From Clostridia bacterium (GTDB lineage Bacteria > Bacillota > Clostridia > UMGS1810), in assembly GCA_017436905.1 (NCBI GenBank), contig JAFSCF010000011.1:1-64000 (forward strand): a stretch of DNA of 64,000 bases. Reading direction: 5' to 3'. Made by a program: the position numbers and the translations under genes. Within the stretch, counting starts at the first letter, position 1. Each line of letters begins with the position of its first letter. The notes beneath the pieces were generated by a model that had not been told where the DNA came from, did no database searches, and saw only the letters and a program-made list of their open reading frames with translations. Shown here piece by piece: positions 178-56,175 of this stretch.

Positions 178-584
178 TATGGCTACGAAGCCGCAATGGT
201 TTTAAGGGGTTCTTAGGGGCAGCGCCCCTGAGCGGTTTTAGGGGTCCGGGGGAATCCGAACCCCCGGGACTTTTGGTACTTTTGGTCACAAAAGTACATA
301 TAAAAATATATTTATAAAATATTTATTCTCCAAGGGGGATTCCCCCTTGGCAACCCCCTTGTCGACTAATTACAGAATTGGACAAATTATATGCTCATTG
401 CTTTTTGCCTTTAACCATCGCACGCAATAAAAACTCATTTTATGCGTGCTAAACCGATGCTTTATATGTTATAGGGAATTAATCGCATCGGTTTTGGAAT
501 CCAAAAAGCAATTTCACATTAATTTGTTTACCAATTCTTCCATAGGTCGACCTTAAAACCATAAACCACTATACCTTCGTAGAC
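178..584 (+). repeat. Interspersed structured repeat, copy A (full length)
   Basis: The full element starts with ATGGCTACGAAGCC and ends with an imperfect inverse of that sequence near 575-584. Its left half holds GC-rich hairpins: CTTAGGGG/CCCCTGAG, GTCCGGGGG/CCCCCGGGAC, GTACTTTTG/CAAAAGTAC and CCAAGGGGG/CCCCCTTGG. Its right half is a 191-bp core bounded by GTCGAC at 361-366 and 546-551. The core has terminal inverted arms and three inner stems: 398-407 with 502-511, 420-432 with 438-449, and 451-460 with 485-494. It carries no credible coding frame. Related copies lie at 4216, 10483, 13795, 17738, 23308 and 55722. It could be a MITE-like mobile element or a transcribed structured RNA. Confidence 0.85.
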
Positions 585-592
585 GTAATATC

Positions 593-4160: not shown

Positions 4161-4215
4161 GAATTGCACGCAAAATACGGACGATATTGACGATATTATA
4201 GTTATGCCAATGTTG

Positions 4216-4604
4216 AGAGATATGGGGTTCTTAGGGGGAACCCCTAAGCGGTTTTAGGGGTCCGGAGCAATCCACCCCCGGGACTTTTGGTACTTTTAGT
4301 CATAAAAGTACATATAAAATGTTTTTTAATATTTCTCAAAGGGAGATTCTCCCTTTGAAACCCTCTTGTCGACTGATTACAGAATTGGACAAATTAAACG
4401 CTCGGCGTTCCTGCTCTTTCACCGCCGCACAAAACGGAAACTCATTCCTTGTTGTGCTAAAACGGCGCTATATTTGTAATAGGAAATATAACCGCGCCGT
4501 TTTACGGTTAAGCAGTCACGCTTTCGCTGTAATTTGTTCGCCAATTCTTCCATAGGTCGACCTTTAAAACCATAAACCACTGTGGCTTCATAGCCACAAA
4601 GTTG
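4216..4604 (+). repeat. Interspersed structured repeat, copy B (divergent sequence, same fold)
   Basis: The order of modules is the same as in copy A: GC-rich hairpins, then a GTCGAC-bounded core at 4368-4561. The inner stems differ in sequence but still pair. AAAACGGCGC (4459-4468) pairs with GCGCCGTTTT (4494-4503), where copy A has AAACCGATGC/GCATCGGTTT. CAAAGGGAGA/TCTCCCTTTG replaces CCAAGGGGG/CCCCCTTGG. GTACTTTTA/TAAAAGTAC replaces GTACTTTTG/CAAAAGTAC. This copy is the main evidence that the structure, not the sequence, is kept. Confidence 0.85.
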
Positions 4605-4647
4605 TGTTAACCGCTGAATTTTCAGCGGTTAAAATATTTTCAAAAGG

Positions 4648-4676
4648 TTGACAACACGGCTAAAATTTTATATACT
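4648..4676 (+). promoter_or_regulatory. Promoter of alaS
   Basis: TTGACA (4648-4653) and TATACT (4671-4676) have a 17-bp spacer. Transcription would start near 4683, so an ATG at 4682 cannot be the start codon. No T-box leader is present. Confidence 0.85.
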
Positions 4677-4726
4677 ATATAATGTATATTTGTGTGCAAA
4701 ATAATCCGAAAGGAATGAATTACTAT

Positions 4727-9845: not shown

Positions 9846-10478
9846 GTGAAAGAGAAAAGTGTTTCACCTGTGGTTATCAAACGTTTGCCAAGATATTACA
9901 GGTATCTCGGCGAACTTTTAGGAAGAGGCGTTGCACGTATATCGTCTAAAGATTTAAGCACGCTTATGGGCGTTACTGCATCGCAGATACGTCAGGATTT
10001 AAACTGTTTTGGCGGGTTTGGTCAGCAGGGGTATGGCTACAATGTTGCAGAACTGCATAAGCAGATTGCAAATATCCTTGGTCTTGACAGAGGTTATAAA
10101 ACTATTATCGTAGGTGCAGGTAACCTCGGTAAAGCTCTTGCAAAGCATAGCAACTTCCGTAAAAGAGGGTTTAACCTTGTTGGGATTTTCGATGCCGATG
10201 AAAACCTCGTCGGCAAAGAGATAAACGGTGTTGAAGTACAGAGTTCTGCCGCAATGGACGATTTTATTAAAGAGAATAAGCCCGACATTGCTATCCTTGC
10301 ACTGCCAAAGAGTGCAGTTGAGGCAGAGGCTAACAGGCTCGTTTCCCTCGGGGTTAAGGGAATATGGAATTTCTCTTACGGCGAACTGCATCTGCCTGAT
10401 GGCGTAGCGGTAGAGAATGTTCATTTAAGCGATTCGCTTATGACGCTTTCGTATAAACTTACAGAAATAGAAGAATAA
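9846..10478 (+). CDS. rex: Redox-sensing transcriptional repressor Rex
   Basis: Rex binds DNA when the NADH/NAD ratio is low and represses fermentation and respiration genes. The winged-helix part covers residues 1-80 (RLPRYYRYLGEL, ASQIRQDLNCFGGFGQQGYGY). The Rossmann NADH domain starts at VGAGNLGKAL near residue 88. The C-terminal swapped helix is at the end. I place the start at GTG 9846 because GGTGG lies 8 bases upstream; GTG 9834 overlaps that site. The 210 residues are normal. A likely operator is at 53376-53393 before pckG. Confidence 0.95.
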   Translation: MKEKSVSPVVIKRLPRYYRYLGELLGRGVARISSKDLSTLMGVTASQIRQDLNCFGGFGQQGYGYNVAELHKQIANILGLDRGYKTIIVGAGNLGKALAKHSNFRKRGFNLVGIFDADENLVGKEINGVEVQSSAAMDDFIKENKPDIAILALPKSAVEAEANRLVSLGVKGIWNFSYGELHLPDGVAVENVHLSDSLMTLSYKLTEIEE

Positions 10479-10482
10479 TTTA

Positions 10483-10583
10483 TATGTACTTTTGTGACCA
10501 AAAGTACCAAAAGTCCCGGGGGTTCGGATTCCCCCGGACCCCTAAAACCGCTTAGGGGATTCTCCCCTAAGAACCCCGTTTAA
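10483..10583 (-). repeat. Interspersed repeat, partial copy (hairpin module only)
   Basis: In reverse orientation this has only the GTAC hairpin, the GTCCGGGGG-type hairpin and the CTTAGGGG/CCCCTAAG hairpin. The GTCGAC core is absent. It directly follows rex. Confidence 0.8.
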
Positions 10584-13686: not shown

Positions 13687-13794
13687 AGTTATATCTCCAT
13701 GTAATAAATAGGGGCACTTATAGATTTTACAATACCATTTTATCATACAATTATTACAACCATATTACAAACACTTTAAAATAATATAACATTT

Positions 13795-14252
13795 ATATGT
13801 ACTTTTGTGACCAAAAGTACCAAAAGTCCTGGGGGTTCGGATTCCCCTAAGAACCCCTTAAAACCATTATGGCTACGAAGCCGCTGTGATTTATGGTTTT
13901 AAAGGTCGACCTATGGAAGAATTGGCAAACAAATTAATGTGAAATTGCTTTTTGGCTTCCAAAACCGATGCGATTAATTCCCTATAACAAATAAAGCATC
14001 GGTTTAGCACGCATAAAATAAGTTTTTATTGCGTGCGGTGGGCAAAGTCAAAAAACAATGAACATAATAATTTGTCCAATTCTGGAATTAGTCGACAAGG
14101 GGGTTGCCAAGGGGGAACACCCCCCTTGGAGAATCTTTTATTAAAAAACATTTTATATGTACTTTTGTGACCAAAAGTACCAAAAGTCCCGGGGGTTCGG
14201 ATTCCCCCAGACCCCTAAAACCGCTTAGGGGATTCCCCCTAAGAACCCCGTG
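13795..14252 (-). repeat. Interspersed structured repeat, copy C
   Basis: This copy is in reverse orientation with the core at 13905-14096 (GTCGAC at both ends) and sequence close to copy A. A second GTAC-hairpin module sits outside the core at 13795-13860, so the hairpin module occurs on both sides. It separates the WalRK-isomerase genes from the yycHI group and fills the whole intergenic stretch. Confidence 0.85.
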
Positions 14253-17737: not shown

Positions 17738-17950
17738 TAAAAGTCGACCTATGGAAGAATTGGCAAACATATAATTTGTCCAATTCTGGAATTAGTCAAC
17801 AAGAGGGTTTCAAAGGGAGAATCTCCCTTTGAGAAATATTAAAAAACATTTTATATGTACTTTGTAGACTCACAAGTACCAAAAGTCCCGGGGGTGGATT
17901 GCTCCGGACCCCTAAAACCGCTCAGGGGTTTCACCCCTAAGAACCCTTTT
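17738..17950 (-). repeat. Interspersed repeat, copy D with core deletion
   Basis: This reverse copy keeps the terminal inverted arms of the core (GTCGAC at 17743-17748, GTCAAC at 17795-17800) but has lost all inner stems. Its core is 58 bp instead of about 191. The outer hairpins follow, with the CAAAGGGAGA-type stem of copy B. Confidence 0.82.
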
Positions 17951-21098: not shown

Positions 21099-21125
21099 TA
21101 AAATCATATAAATATACTATTGCAA

Positions 21126-21212
21126 TATATTTCCTACGACGGCATTATCCGTATCAGGTCAATGGGTCGGAACTCACAATTCCCTCTCAGCCTTTAATAA
21201 AAGCTCCCCAAA
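21126..21212 (-). ncRNA. TPP riboswitch (THI element)
   Basis: The minus strand reads GGGGAGC, then GGCTGAGAGGG, then GACCCATTGACCTGAT, then GGATAATGCCGTCGTAGGAA. These are the conserved P2/J3-2/P4-P5 blocks of the thiamine pyrophosphate aptamer. The aptamer, terminator and thiT lie in order. Confidence 0.96.
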
Positions 21213-21227
21213 TATTTAATTTTCTTT

Positions 21228-23307: not shown

Positions 23308-23553
23308 CTTTATGTACTTTTGTGACCAAAAGTACCAAAAGTCCCGGGGGTTCAGATTCCCCCGGACCCCTAAAACTGTTCAGGGGTTTCACCCCTAAAA
23401 ACCCCTTTGGGTTAGCACGCATAAAATAAGTTTTTATTGCGTGCGGTGGTTAAAGGTAAAAAGCAATGAACATATAATTTGTCCAATTCTGTAATCAGTC
23501 GACAAGGGGGTTGCCAAGGGGGAAGCCCCCTTGGAGAATCTTTAATTTTAAAA
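23308..23553 (-). repeat. Interspersed repeat, copy E (half core)
   Basis: Reverse orientation. The hairpin modules lie at 23308-23400. Only half of the core follows (from about 23412 to GTCGAC at 23498-23503), with the GCACGCATAAAA stem intact, then the CCAAGGGGG-type hairpin. It separates nrnA from truB inside an otherwise conserved operon and supplies the leader of truB. Confidence 0.83.
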
Positions 23554-23567
23554 ATAAATTTTTATAA

Positions 23568-23600
23568 CGGGACGTCGTGAACGCCGTCCCCTACAATGTT
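23568..23600. repeat. Short GGGACG...CGTCCCCTACAA hairpin repeat
   Basis: GGGACG(T)CG/CG(C)CGTCCC with a TGAA loop is followed by CTACAA. The same design (GGGACGAT/ATCGTCCCCTACAA) recurs at 44227-44254. I recognise this as a type of short repeat scattered in clostridial genomes. Confidence 0.65.
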
Positions 23601-23627
23601 CCCATACATTTATGCAGACAACCAGAC

Positions 23628-23700
23628 CCCTAAAACCGCTTAGGGGTTCCCCCTAAGACCCCCTTAAAAACCATAAACCAAAATGGCTTCGTAGCCATCT
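23628..23700 (-). repeat. Interspersed repeat, end fragment
   Basis: This fragment has the CCTAAAACCGCTTAGGGG hairpin, AAAACCATAAACC and the terminal GGCTTCGTAGCC. It is the outer end of the repeat family without a core. Confidence 0.75.
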
Positions 23701-25021: not shown

Positions 25022-27511
25022 TTACCTTTCCACTTCTTCCATATCAAACGATTCGATTATATCGCCCTCTTTGATATCGTTGAAGTTTTCAATACCGATA
25101 CCGCATTCGTAGCCGGAGGCAACTTCTTTTGCATCGTCTTTAAAGCGTTTGAGAGATGCCAGCACGCCCTCGTGGATAACTATACCGTCACGCACGATAC
25201 GTACCTGTGAATTACGCAGGATTTTACCCTCCTGAACGTAACCGCCGGCAATTGTTCCAACGCCTGAAACTTTGAATGTGTTACGAACTTCTGCGTGACC
25301 GTATACAACCTCTTTGAATTCAGGAGCGAGCATGCCTTTCATAGCGGCTTCGATTTCCTCTATAGCGGTGTAGATAACTCTGTATGTGCGGATATCTACG
25401 TTATCACGTGCGGCAGTTGAAACCGCCTGAGCGTTGGGACGTACGTTAAAGCCTACGATTACTGCGTTAGATGCAGCCGCAAGCATAACGTCGCTTTCGG
25501 TAATACCGCCTACGCCGCCGTGGATACACGCCACACGCACTTCTTCGTTAGAGAGTTTTTCAAGCGACTGTTTAACCGCCTCAACCGAGCCCTGAACGTC
25601 TGCTTTAACGATGATGTTAAAGGTTTTCATCTCGCCCTCTTTGATGTGGTCAAAGAGAGAGTCGAGAGATACAGCCTTGCGAGCCTGATTAGCCTCTTCC
25701 TTTGCTTTGAACTTTCTCTGTTCTACTACTTCTCTTGCTTTGCGCTCGTCTGTTACGGCGTAGAAAGCATCGCCGCCGTCGGGCACTTCGCTTAAACCGA
25801 TAATCTCAACAGGTACTGACGGGCCTGCTTTTTTAACCTGATTACCACGGTCGTCTACCATAGCACGTACTCTGCCCACTGCAGTACCTGCAACTACAAC
25901 GTCACCTACACGGAGGGTACCGTTCTGCACAAGCACTGTTGCAACGGGGCCACGGCCTTTGTCAAGCTGAGCCTCTACAACTGTACCTTTACCCATTCTG
26001 TCGGGGTTGGCTTTAAGTTCTTTCATATCTGCTACGAGTGTTACCATCTCAAGCAGTTCGTCGATATTTTTGTTGAATTTTGCAGAAATGGGTACACAGA
26101 TTGTGTCACCGCCCCATTCTTCAGGAACGAGGTCGTATTCTGTGAGTTCCTGCTTGATTCTGTCGGGGTTTGCGCCCTCTTTGTCGATTTTGTTGATTGC
26201 AACGATTATAGTTACGCCTGCAGCCTTAGCATGGTTAATAGCCTCAACTGTCTGCGGCATAATTCCGTCGTCTGCCGCAACTACGATAATTGCAATATCA
26301 GTTACCTGTGCACCACGCAAACGCATAGCGGTAAACGCTTCGTGACCGGGAGTGTCTAAGAATGTGATTTTTTTATCGTGAATACGCACACGGTACGCAC
26401 CGATATGCTGTGTAATACCGCCTGCCTCTTTTGCTATTACGTTAGTGTTGCGGATTGCGTCGAGCAGTGATGTTTTACCATGGTCAACGTGACCCATAAC
26501 AACTACAACCGGTGAACGTGGTTTTAAACTTTCGGGAGCGTCTTCAACGTCGTTAAATAGTTTATCCTCTTCTGTAACAATTATGAGTTTCTCAACGATA
26601 AAGCCCAAATCCTCGCCGACGAGTGACGCAGTGTCAAAGTCTATTGTCTGTGAAACAGATGCCATAATGCCGAGTTCAAACAGTTTTTTAACAACTGTTG
26701 ATGCGGGAAGTTTCATAAGTTCTGCAAATTCGCCTACAGAGATTTCGTCAGGCACTTCTACAACAGCAGGTTCTTTCTTTTCTTCCTCTTTTTTCTTTAC
26801 GGGAGTTTTCTGCACTACTGCCTTTTCCTGCTTTTTAGGTCCTTTTTTGATTTTTTGTTTCTTTTCGGCTTTGTCGCTCATATCCATGTCGACAAGTTTT
26901 TCGATTTTTTCAGTATCAAGTTTATCAAGGTCAACAACGTTCTGGCGTGTGTCGATAACCTTGCGTGTATCCTCTTTTTTGATTTCGATACTTTCGATAT
27001 CGTTGTTTTCAGAAACAGATTTTTTAAGTTGCTCAAGTTCCTCGGCACGTTTTTTGTCGAGTTCTGCTTTTTTCTGTTTTTCTAAGCGTTCCTGCTCTTT
27101 TTTCTTGGCGATTTTCTCTGCTTTTTCAGCGGCTTTTTTGTCAGCCTCTGCTTTTTCAGCCGCTTTGCGATCTTCTTCAGCCTTTTTGGCAGCGGCTTCT
27201 TCAGCGGCTTTCTTAGCCTTTTCTTCTGCCTCTTTTTTAGCCTTTTTAGCCTCACGTTCAGCCACGGCTTTCTCACGTTCTGCAGAGAGTTCGGCATTAA
27301 TTTTTGTATATGCCTCTAAGATAGTATCACCGTTATCGTATTGTTTTAAATGATGAGCGAAAAATACGTTTATTTCGTCACCTGTAATTGACGCAGTGGA
27401 GTTTTTCTTTTCAATATTGTACTTTGCTAAAAGTTCTGTCATATCTTTAACAGACATACCAAACTTTTTGGCAAAATCTGATAATTTAATTTTTGTACCA
27501 CCGTTTGTCAT
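25022..27511 (-). CDS. infB: Translation initiation factor IF-2
   Basis: IF-2 is the GTPase that places fMet-tRNA on the 30S subunit. Residues 1-60 form an IF2-N module ([20 protein letters not shown]), residues 80-230 a very charged Lys/Glu/Ala coiled coil, and residues about 250-300 a second IF2-N module. The G domain starts at GHVDHGKTS near residue 337 with DTPGHE and NKID. Domains II-IV follow to 829 residues. The start overlaps the ylxQ stop by 4 bases. The coiled coil creates spurious open frames on the other strand. Confidence 0.96.
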
Positions 27512-39774: not shown

Positions 39775-39815
39775 GCACCGCACTCCGGTTTGGAGTGCGG
39801 TGCTTTTATGTGTGT
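39775..39815 (+). terminator. S-layer terminator, first of two identical copies
   Basis: GCACCGCACTCC/GGAGTGCGGTGC with a GGTTT-containing loop is followed by TTTTA. The 41 bases 39775-39815 recur exactly at 40541-40581. Confidence 0.9.
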
Positions 39816-39883
39816 GAATTATATTTTAATAGATGCATATAATATAATGTATCTTCTAAAATTCGATTATATTTATAAATATA

Positions 39884-40540: not shown

Positions 40541-40581
40541 GCACCGCACTCCGGTTTGGAGTGCGGTGCTTTTATGTGTGT
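40541..40581 (+). terminator. Second identical copy of the S-layer terminator
   Basis: It is identical over 41 bases to 39775-39815 and here closes the type III toxin gene. It is followed, like the first copy, by TTATAAATATATTGACAA (40603-40620; first copy 39873-39890), the -35 region of the next promoter. Confidence 0.9.
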
Positions 40582-40613
40582 TGGTGTTTCTCAAAAATAT
40601 TCTTATAAATATA

Positions 40614-55663: not shown

Positions 55664-55721
55664 GAGTTGTTCGTATACAAAATTTCGACATTTTTCGCAC
55701 TTAATATAATAATGGAATAAA

Positions 55722-56175
55722 AAGGGGTTCTTAGGGGTGAAACCCCTGAGCGGTTTTAGGGGTCCGGGGGAATCCGAACCCCCGGGACTTTTGGTACTTT
55801 TAGTCATAAAAGTACATTTAAAAATTATTTTTAAAATAGATGTTTCTCCAAGGGGGACTTCCCCCTTGGCACCTACGACTCGCTTTGCTCGCTTGCATAA
55901 GTTCCACCAGCCAAATCAAAGATTTGGGGTGTCACTTACCTTGTCGACTGATTACAGAATTGTACAAATTATATGCTCATTGCTTTTTGTCTTTTTCCAC
56001 CGCACGCAATAAAAACTCATTTTATGCGTGCTAAACCGATGCTTTATATGTAATATGGAATTAATCGCATCGGGTTTGGAAGCCAAAAAGCAATTTCACA
56101 TTAATTTGTTTGCCAATTCTTCCATAGGTCGACGTTTAAAACCATAAATCGATATGGCTTCGCAGCCATGATTAA
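55722..56175 (+). repeat. Interspersed structured repeat, copy G (with insertion)
   Basis: This plus-orientation copy has the core at 55943-56133, close in sequence to copy A. About 70 extra bases (around 55870-55940, CTACGACTCGCTTTGC...) sit between the CCAAGGGGG hairpin and the core. It ends with ATGGCTTCGCAGCCAT. Confidence 0.85.

Follow-up and report, generated by a model that had tools for sequence, protein, structure and literature searches.

A dispersed non-coding repeat with a branched, covarying fold in a Clostridia genome

RESULTS

A mosaic repeat in the window

The window, a 64,000-nucleotide (64-kb) stretch of the genome of a Clostridia bacterium (hereafter G000), carries several copies of a repeat with a core of about 191 bp (Table 1). 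The sequence-only reading had placed four such cores, bounded by GTCGAC, at 361, 4368, 13905, and 55943, and both the positions and the bounds were confirmed; the damaged cores that it listed at 17743 and 23412 also proved to be real, the former (17743-17800) having suffered a deletion and the latter (23409-23503) having been cut by a module M. The 64 kb contain 11 GTCGAC sites, of which the single one outside copies of the element lies at 26888. The window also holds a TPP riboswitch on the minus strand (21113-21220, 77 bits) and two copies of a terminator-like hairpin, GCACCGCACTCCGGTTTGGAGTGCGGTGC, at 39775-39842 and 40541-40608, which are 81% identical over 68 nt.

Table 1. Copies of the core and the modules associated with them in the window.
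Feature	Position	Strand	Description
Core	361-551	+	Intact, subfamily A; P1 (GTCGAC ends), P2 (AATTGG.ACAAATTA), P3, P4, hairpin 1, hairpin 2, three-way junction
Core	4368-4561	+	Intact, subfamily B; inner domain 59% identical to A, fold shared
Core	13905-14096	-	Intact, subfamily A
Core	55943-56133	+	Intact, subfamily A; ~50 bp foreign insert between core and its own P0 hairpin
Damaged core	17743-17800	-	Internal deletion; inner hairpins gone between TGTT direct repeats, outer arms joined
Damaged core	23409-23503	-	Cut within hairpin 2 by left end of another copy's module M
Module M	206-304	+	GGGGTTCTTAGGGG ... GGTACTTTTGGTCACAAAAGTAC; upstream of 361 core
Module M and AT-rich spacer	4224-4336	+	4368 copy
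Module M	14144-14251	-	13905 copy
Module M, second, partial	13791-13865	-	Tandem, after tail of 13905 copy
Module M	55721-55832	+	55943 copy
Module M	17832-17946	-	17743 copy
Module M	23311-23408	-	Truncates 23409 core
Module M, solo	10463-10580	-	No core
P0	330-360	+	361 copy; hairpin CCAAGGGGG-ATT-CCCCCTTGG and third tract CCCCC, intrastrand-triplex-type motif
P0	4337-4367	+	4368 copy; variant GGGAG/CTCCC, third tract CCCTC (mirror match)
Tail	552-586	+	TTAAAACCATAAACCAC and hairpin (GGCTTCGTAGCC in other copies); partly inverse of left flank of some copies

A larger repeated unit of ~390-430 bp, not visible to the earlier reading, contains the core. It runs from module M through an AT-rich spacer, the hairpin P0, and the core itself to a tail that carries a hairpin. 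The unit is without coding capacity, as only chance open reading frames fall within the repeat. The 23409 copy carries TGGTTTATGGTTTTTAAGG at its left end. Most copies have the inverse of this sequence at their right end, and several copies are without the left one. At 23504-23660 (minus strand) in the window and near 9100 on contig 13 of G000, a different left module, GGTTGTCTGCATAAATGTATGGGAACATTGTAGGGGACGGCGTTCACGACGTCCC, replaces the second half of M, and these two copies indicate that left modules are exchanged too. The foreign stretch of the 55943 copy (~50 bp, ACGACTCGCTTTGCTCGCTTGCATAAGTTCC..., within 55880-55942) has a 94% match at 91694 on contig 1 of the sister species G001, and it therefore probably belongs to another repeat family.

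The third C-tract of P0 sits between the hairpin and the core, and it is as long as the stem in each of the 16 copies in which both are retained (5/5/5 or 4/4/4, as read by eye). The stem GGGAG/CTCCC is paired with a third tract CCCTC not only in the 4368 copy but likewise in the P0 of the 17743 copy (17801-17830), which fits mirror, or triplex, order rather than a simple strand swap, in what is one lineage only. P0 has the layout of an intrastrand triplex motif and, to judge from this layout, may form an actual triplex.

Distribution within the genome and the family

A DNA search and a covariance model were applied to the whole of G000 (1.36 Mb in 20 contigs, ~89% complete) and to its relatives. 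Collecting all copies in this way, as the sequence-only reading had proposed, yielded eight intact cores and two broken ones in G000, or about ten scattered copies, and nine copies in G008, a member of another genus of the same family, among the 16 family genomes searched. Four of the intact cores of G000 lie outside the window; subfamily A comprises those at 361, 13905, and 55943 and one on contig 7, and subfamily B comprises those at 4368 and 77796 and one each on contigs 13 and 14. In G008, the core ends are TTTTGC...GCAAAA in place of GTCGAC...GTCGAC. Among the same 16 genomes, a single full-length but weak match was obtained in G004 (28 bits, E 0.001). It retains the two stem-loops together with the AACTTATT loop and the GCTAAAA junction, and it is probably a remnant of the element in a third genus. 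Module M is restricted, within the 16 family genomes, to G000, G008, and G004, the same three as the core, with the G008 and G004 matches being short. A match in G007 was not counted, as it was weak (24.6 bits) and covered hairpin 1 only.

No copies of the core were found in G001 and G002, the two closest species of the same genus as G000, and a class-wide sample of 391 genomes, with few candidates scored per genome, gave none beyond those of G000 and G008. No match to the element was found among phages, plasmids, and viral contigs. A degenerate-pattern scan of the contigs of 85,000 species, which may omit records very near the window, returned a lone match on a Chitinophagaceae contig that the covariance model did not support and that was attributed to chance. 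The sequence-only reading knew of no named family for the core, in agreement with the Rfam comparison, strict and permissive, in which nothing over the core in the window rose above the gathering threshold and only weak scores were seen (e.g., rliA, 17 of 50 bits).

A common fold with compensated stem changes

All intact copies take one shape, with outer arms (P1 and P2), an inner stem (P3 and P4), and two hairpins that branch off the inner stem at a three-way junction, bearing out the folded core with inverted ends and kept inner stems described from the window. The branched layout is kept at 47-59% identity of the inner sequence. Compared with shuffled sequences, the core has a folding z score of -8.9 when treated as RNA and -9.7 when treated as DNA, and none of 200 shuffles folded equally well. 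The minus strand folds more stably than the plus strand in 17 of 17 copies. As a guide to the strand, G-U pairs were counted against A-C pairs; they lead by 30 cells to 9, but a single column pair accounts for about half of the excess, and no excess of G-U over A-C is seen within the subfamily alignments.

As the sequence-only reading stated, the stem AAACCGATGC/GCATCGGTTT is replaced by AAAACGGCGC/GCGCCGTTTT in the 4368 copy; beyond this stem, for which it had noted two others, two-sided changes are seen there in P3, P4, and hairpin 1. In the alignment of 17 sequences, pairing is found in 92.9% of cells and two-sided change in 28 of 54 pairs, with a covariation score of 0.418 against 0.160 +/- 0.011 for shuffled and 0.05-0.08 for slid partners, figures that are favoured by an alignment fitted to the structure. 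When changes were placed on the tree, 22 pair-keeping double changes were observed against 4.0 +/- 1.8 expected from permuting partners among pairs of the same ancestral type (maximum of 12 in 2000 permutations), and pair-breaking changes also numbered 22, against 45 expected (minimum of 33 in 2000 permutations). Fifteen of the 22 double changes fall on internal branches, however, so that they represent few independent events. An R-scape-like test of the 17 sequences with a phylogeny-aware null found 3 of the 54 pairs individually significant (39-158, 44-153, and 101-132), and at the same raw threshold 12 non-structure pairs appeared against 17 expected. The support is thus collective, strong in sum and weak pair by pair, and the covariation proposed earlier is real across all copies, including those of the other genus, but holds for just these three pairs when each is judged alone.

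Within subfamilies, variation amounts to 4-16% in paired columns and 24-46% in unpaired columns, a contrast that arises partly by construction, since this alignment also served to choose the structure. Among the unpaired parts of the core, change is slowest in the two hairpin loops and in the segment that joins the hairpins, with 0.83 changes per column in the hairpin 1 loop, 1.12 in the hairpin 2 loop, 0 in the inter-hairpin link (the junction), and 1.4-3.2 in the other linkers. The apical loop conserved in hairpin 1 is ACTCATT and that in hairpin 2 is TTGTAATARGGAAATAA; the junction sequence CTAAAA is conserved as well. The conservation of loops on stems that change suggests recognition of the folded strand.

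The outer arms of subfamilies A and B are 86% identical and their inner domains 59% identical. The inner domain of B is 58% identical to that of G008, about the same distance as that from B to A, so the A and B variants go back to one old split within shared ends rather than to many independent recent events. With arms nearly shared and inner domains this distant, old variants appear to have swapped the inner domain as a cassette.

Insertion sites and the search for mobilizing machinery

The copies are intergenic and lie between unrelated genes that differ from copy to copy; no shared neighboring gene and no fixed position relative to genes was found among them. The sister species G001 is ~450-490 bp shorter between the same genes at the two sites compared, with ~268 bp between flanking matches against 717 in G000 at the 13905 site and 182 against 674 at the 55943 site. 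Insertion in G000 is the simplest explanation of the two size differences, with loss in G001 as the alternative. No clean target-site duplication was seen at these two sites, although such duplications decay with age. The genes acn and alaS, which flank the 4368 copy (window 4174-4681), are far apart in G001, where contig 3 was compared, and this copy therefore lies at a rearrangement breakpoint. Hairpins have been lost between short direct repeats in two copies (TGTT at 17743 and CCAA on contig 7), and one G008 copy has lost hairpin 1; these losses suggest a tendency of the DNA itself to fold while it is being copied.

No transposase, integrase, or reverse transcriptase linked to the copies was found, the transposase family searched being the IS200 type. 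G000 and G008 each encode one IS200-type transposase, and an origin of the element as a REP/IS200-IS605 derivative driven by it was rejected, as the flanks of both genes are unrelated to the core. No RVT_1 match for a reverse transcriptase was found in the 16 family genomes, three of which yielded the positive controls. No parent IS with matching ends was found in the fragmented, ~89% complete G000 assembly, in which the TIR pattern matches essentially only copies of the element.

DISCUSSION

The element described here is a repeat with a common fold, compensated stem changes, slowly changing loops, and a mosaic inner domain, and orthologous intergenic regions are free of it. We tentatively favor, at somewhat short of an even chance, the view of a dispersed and non-coding mosaic repeat, mobile but non-autonomous, that is recognized in trans through its folded single strand. 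On this model, the core would fold as a single strand with its outer arms, inner stem, and two hairpins at the three-way junction; a trans-acting factor may recognize the folded form, presenting the apical loops and the CTAAAA junction, and would spread or maintain the element, leaving the stems free to change provided that pairing stays. This reading draws on the eight cores in G000, the nine copies in G008, and the G004 remnant, as well as on the covariation, the slow loops, the differing flanking genes, the shorter sites in G001, the cassette exchange, and the co-occurrence of M with the core. It is weakened by the lack of a linked enzyme and of a clean target duplication, by the passing of just 3 of 54 pairs, by the better folding of the minus strand, and by the small number of independent events.

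Structured RNAs are typically marked by conserved apical loops on covarying stems at a three-way junction, and the core could alternatively be such a non-coding RNA, spread by duplication, that has its own protein-binding or regulatory role and for which mobility is incidental. The strong RNA fold (z of -8.9) and a patchy yet multi-copy occurrence in at least two genera would fit such an RNA, but we consider it, while a serious rival, somewhat improbable, as the copies have no fixed gene neighbor or position relative to genes, are absent from the closest relatives G001 and G002, and have no Rfam relative, and as the better fold of the minus strand leaves the RNA strand ambiguous. Paired changes might also be produced neutrally if template switching in replication copied one arm of a palindrome onto the other, such that no selection on the fold would be needed. 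A published proposal of this mechanism reports footprints in rRNA genes (PMC8794818), and the DNA evidently forms hairpins, given the TGTT loss at 17743, the CCAA loss on contig 7, and the loss of hairpin 1 in one G008 copy. Such copying is a live rival for part of the covariation signal. As an account of the element we hold it to be a serious but unlikely rival, since it does not predict that the apical loops and the junction should be the slowest of the unpaired parts across genera, that the whole branched layout should survive at 47-59% inner identity, or that paired columns should be far less variable than unpaired ones within subfamilies.

The remaining candidates are a retron, a group II intron, or some other reverse-transcribed element. 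Retron RNA has an a1/a2 layout, which the terminal inverted ends around the stem-loops resemble, but the absence of RVT_1 from the 16 family genomes, with positive controls detected in three, makes this origin very improbable. Returning to the mobile repeat, the sequence-only reading held that kept pairing points to selection and is not expected of decaying MITE copies. The covariation and the conserved apical loops uphold this view in part, but it was too strong as worded, both because folded cores are common in mobile repeats (PMC10969869, PMC3049150) and because template switching can yield paired changes without RNA function (PMC8794818).

Among dispersed, structured repeats, the bcr repeats of the Bacillus cereus group include some reported with structure-preserving changes; their host is unrelated, and the likeness to the element is one of description, not of sequence. 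In kind, the nearest counterparts of the element are MITEs and BOX-like repeats (PMC10969869, PMC3049150). Like MITEs, it is shorter than 500 bp, non-coding, intergenic, and dispersed, with a strong stem-loop fold and partly inverse ends (PMC10969869); on the other side, no parent IS with matching ends and no clean target-site duplication was found for it, and since it does not, or may not, share several features that define a MITE, it is better said to work like a MITE than classed as one. Its stems covary around conserved loops, a feature that we did not find reported for MITEs (e.g., PMC10969869). The BOX, RUP, and SPRITE repeats of the pneumococcus are, like the element, modular mosaics that are folded, intergenic, and presumed mobile in trans, with empty sites that are hard to define (PMC3049150). 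They belong to another host and are likened to it by description rather than sequence, covariation is not mentioned for them in that study, and it is the element that has a three-way junction core and a triplex-type hairpin. P0 in turn recalls TM-ECO, a Y-R-R motif of 34-37 nt that is intergenic, present in many copies, and not found with mobile elements (PMC4666352), as it too combines a hairpin with a third tract of equal length, shows a mirror match in the GGGAG variant, and occurs between genes in many copies, but it differs in being R-Y-Y on the core strand (R-R-Y on the other), in its shorter tracts, and in being fixed to a repeated unit. It is conceivable, though we regard it as rather doubtful, that the element represents an undescribed class of mobile element, in which the covarying branched fold with its two conserved loops, standing behind a triplex-type hairpin, would serve as the recognized substrate or guide-like RNA of a mobility system and the folded inner domain would be exchanged as a cassette.

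Small bacterial repeats are usually regarded as decaying parasites, and here, across genera, the core has retained its fold while about half of its sequence has changed. It appears that the fold itself, beyond the sequence, was kept during the spread of the element. The element supplies a natural covariance model for finding more copies, and it pits structural selection against template-switch copying as the source of paired changes in palindromes, making it a testable case for selection on the folded strand in a mobile element.
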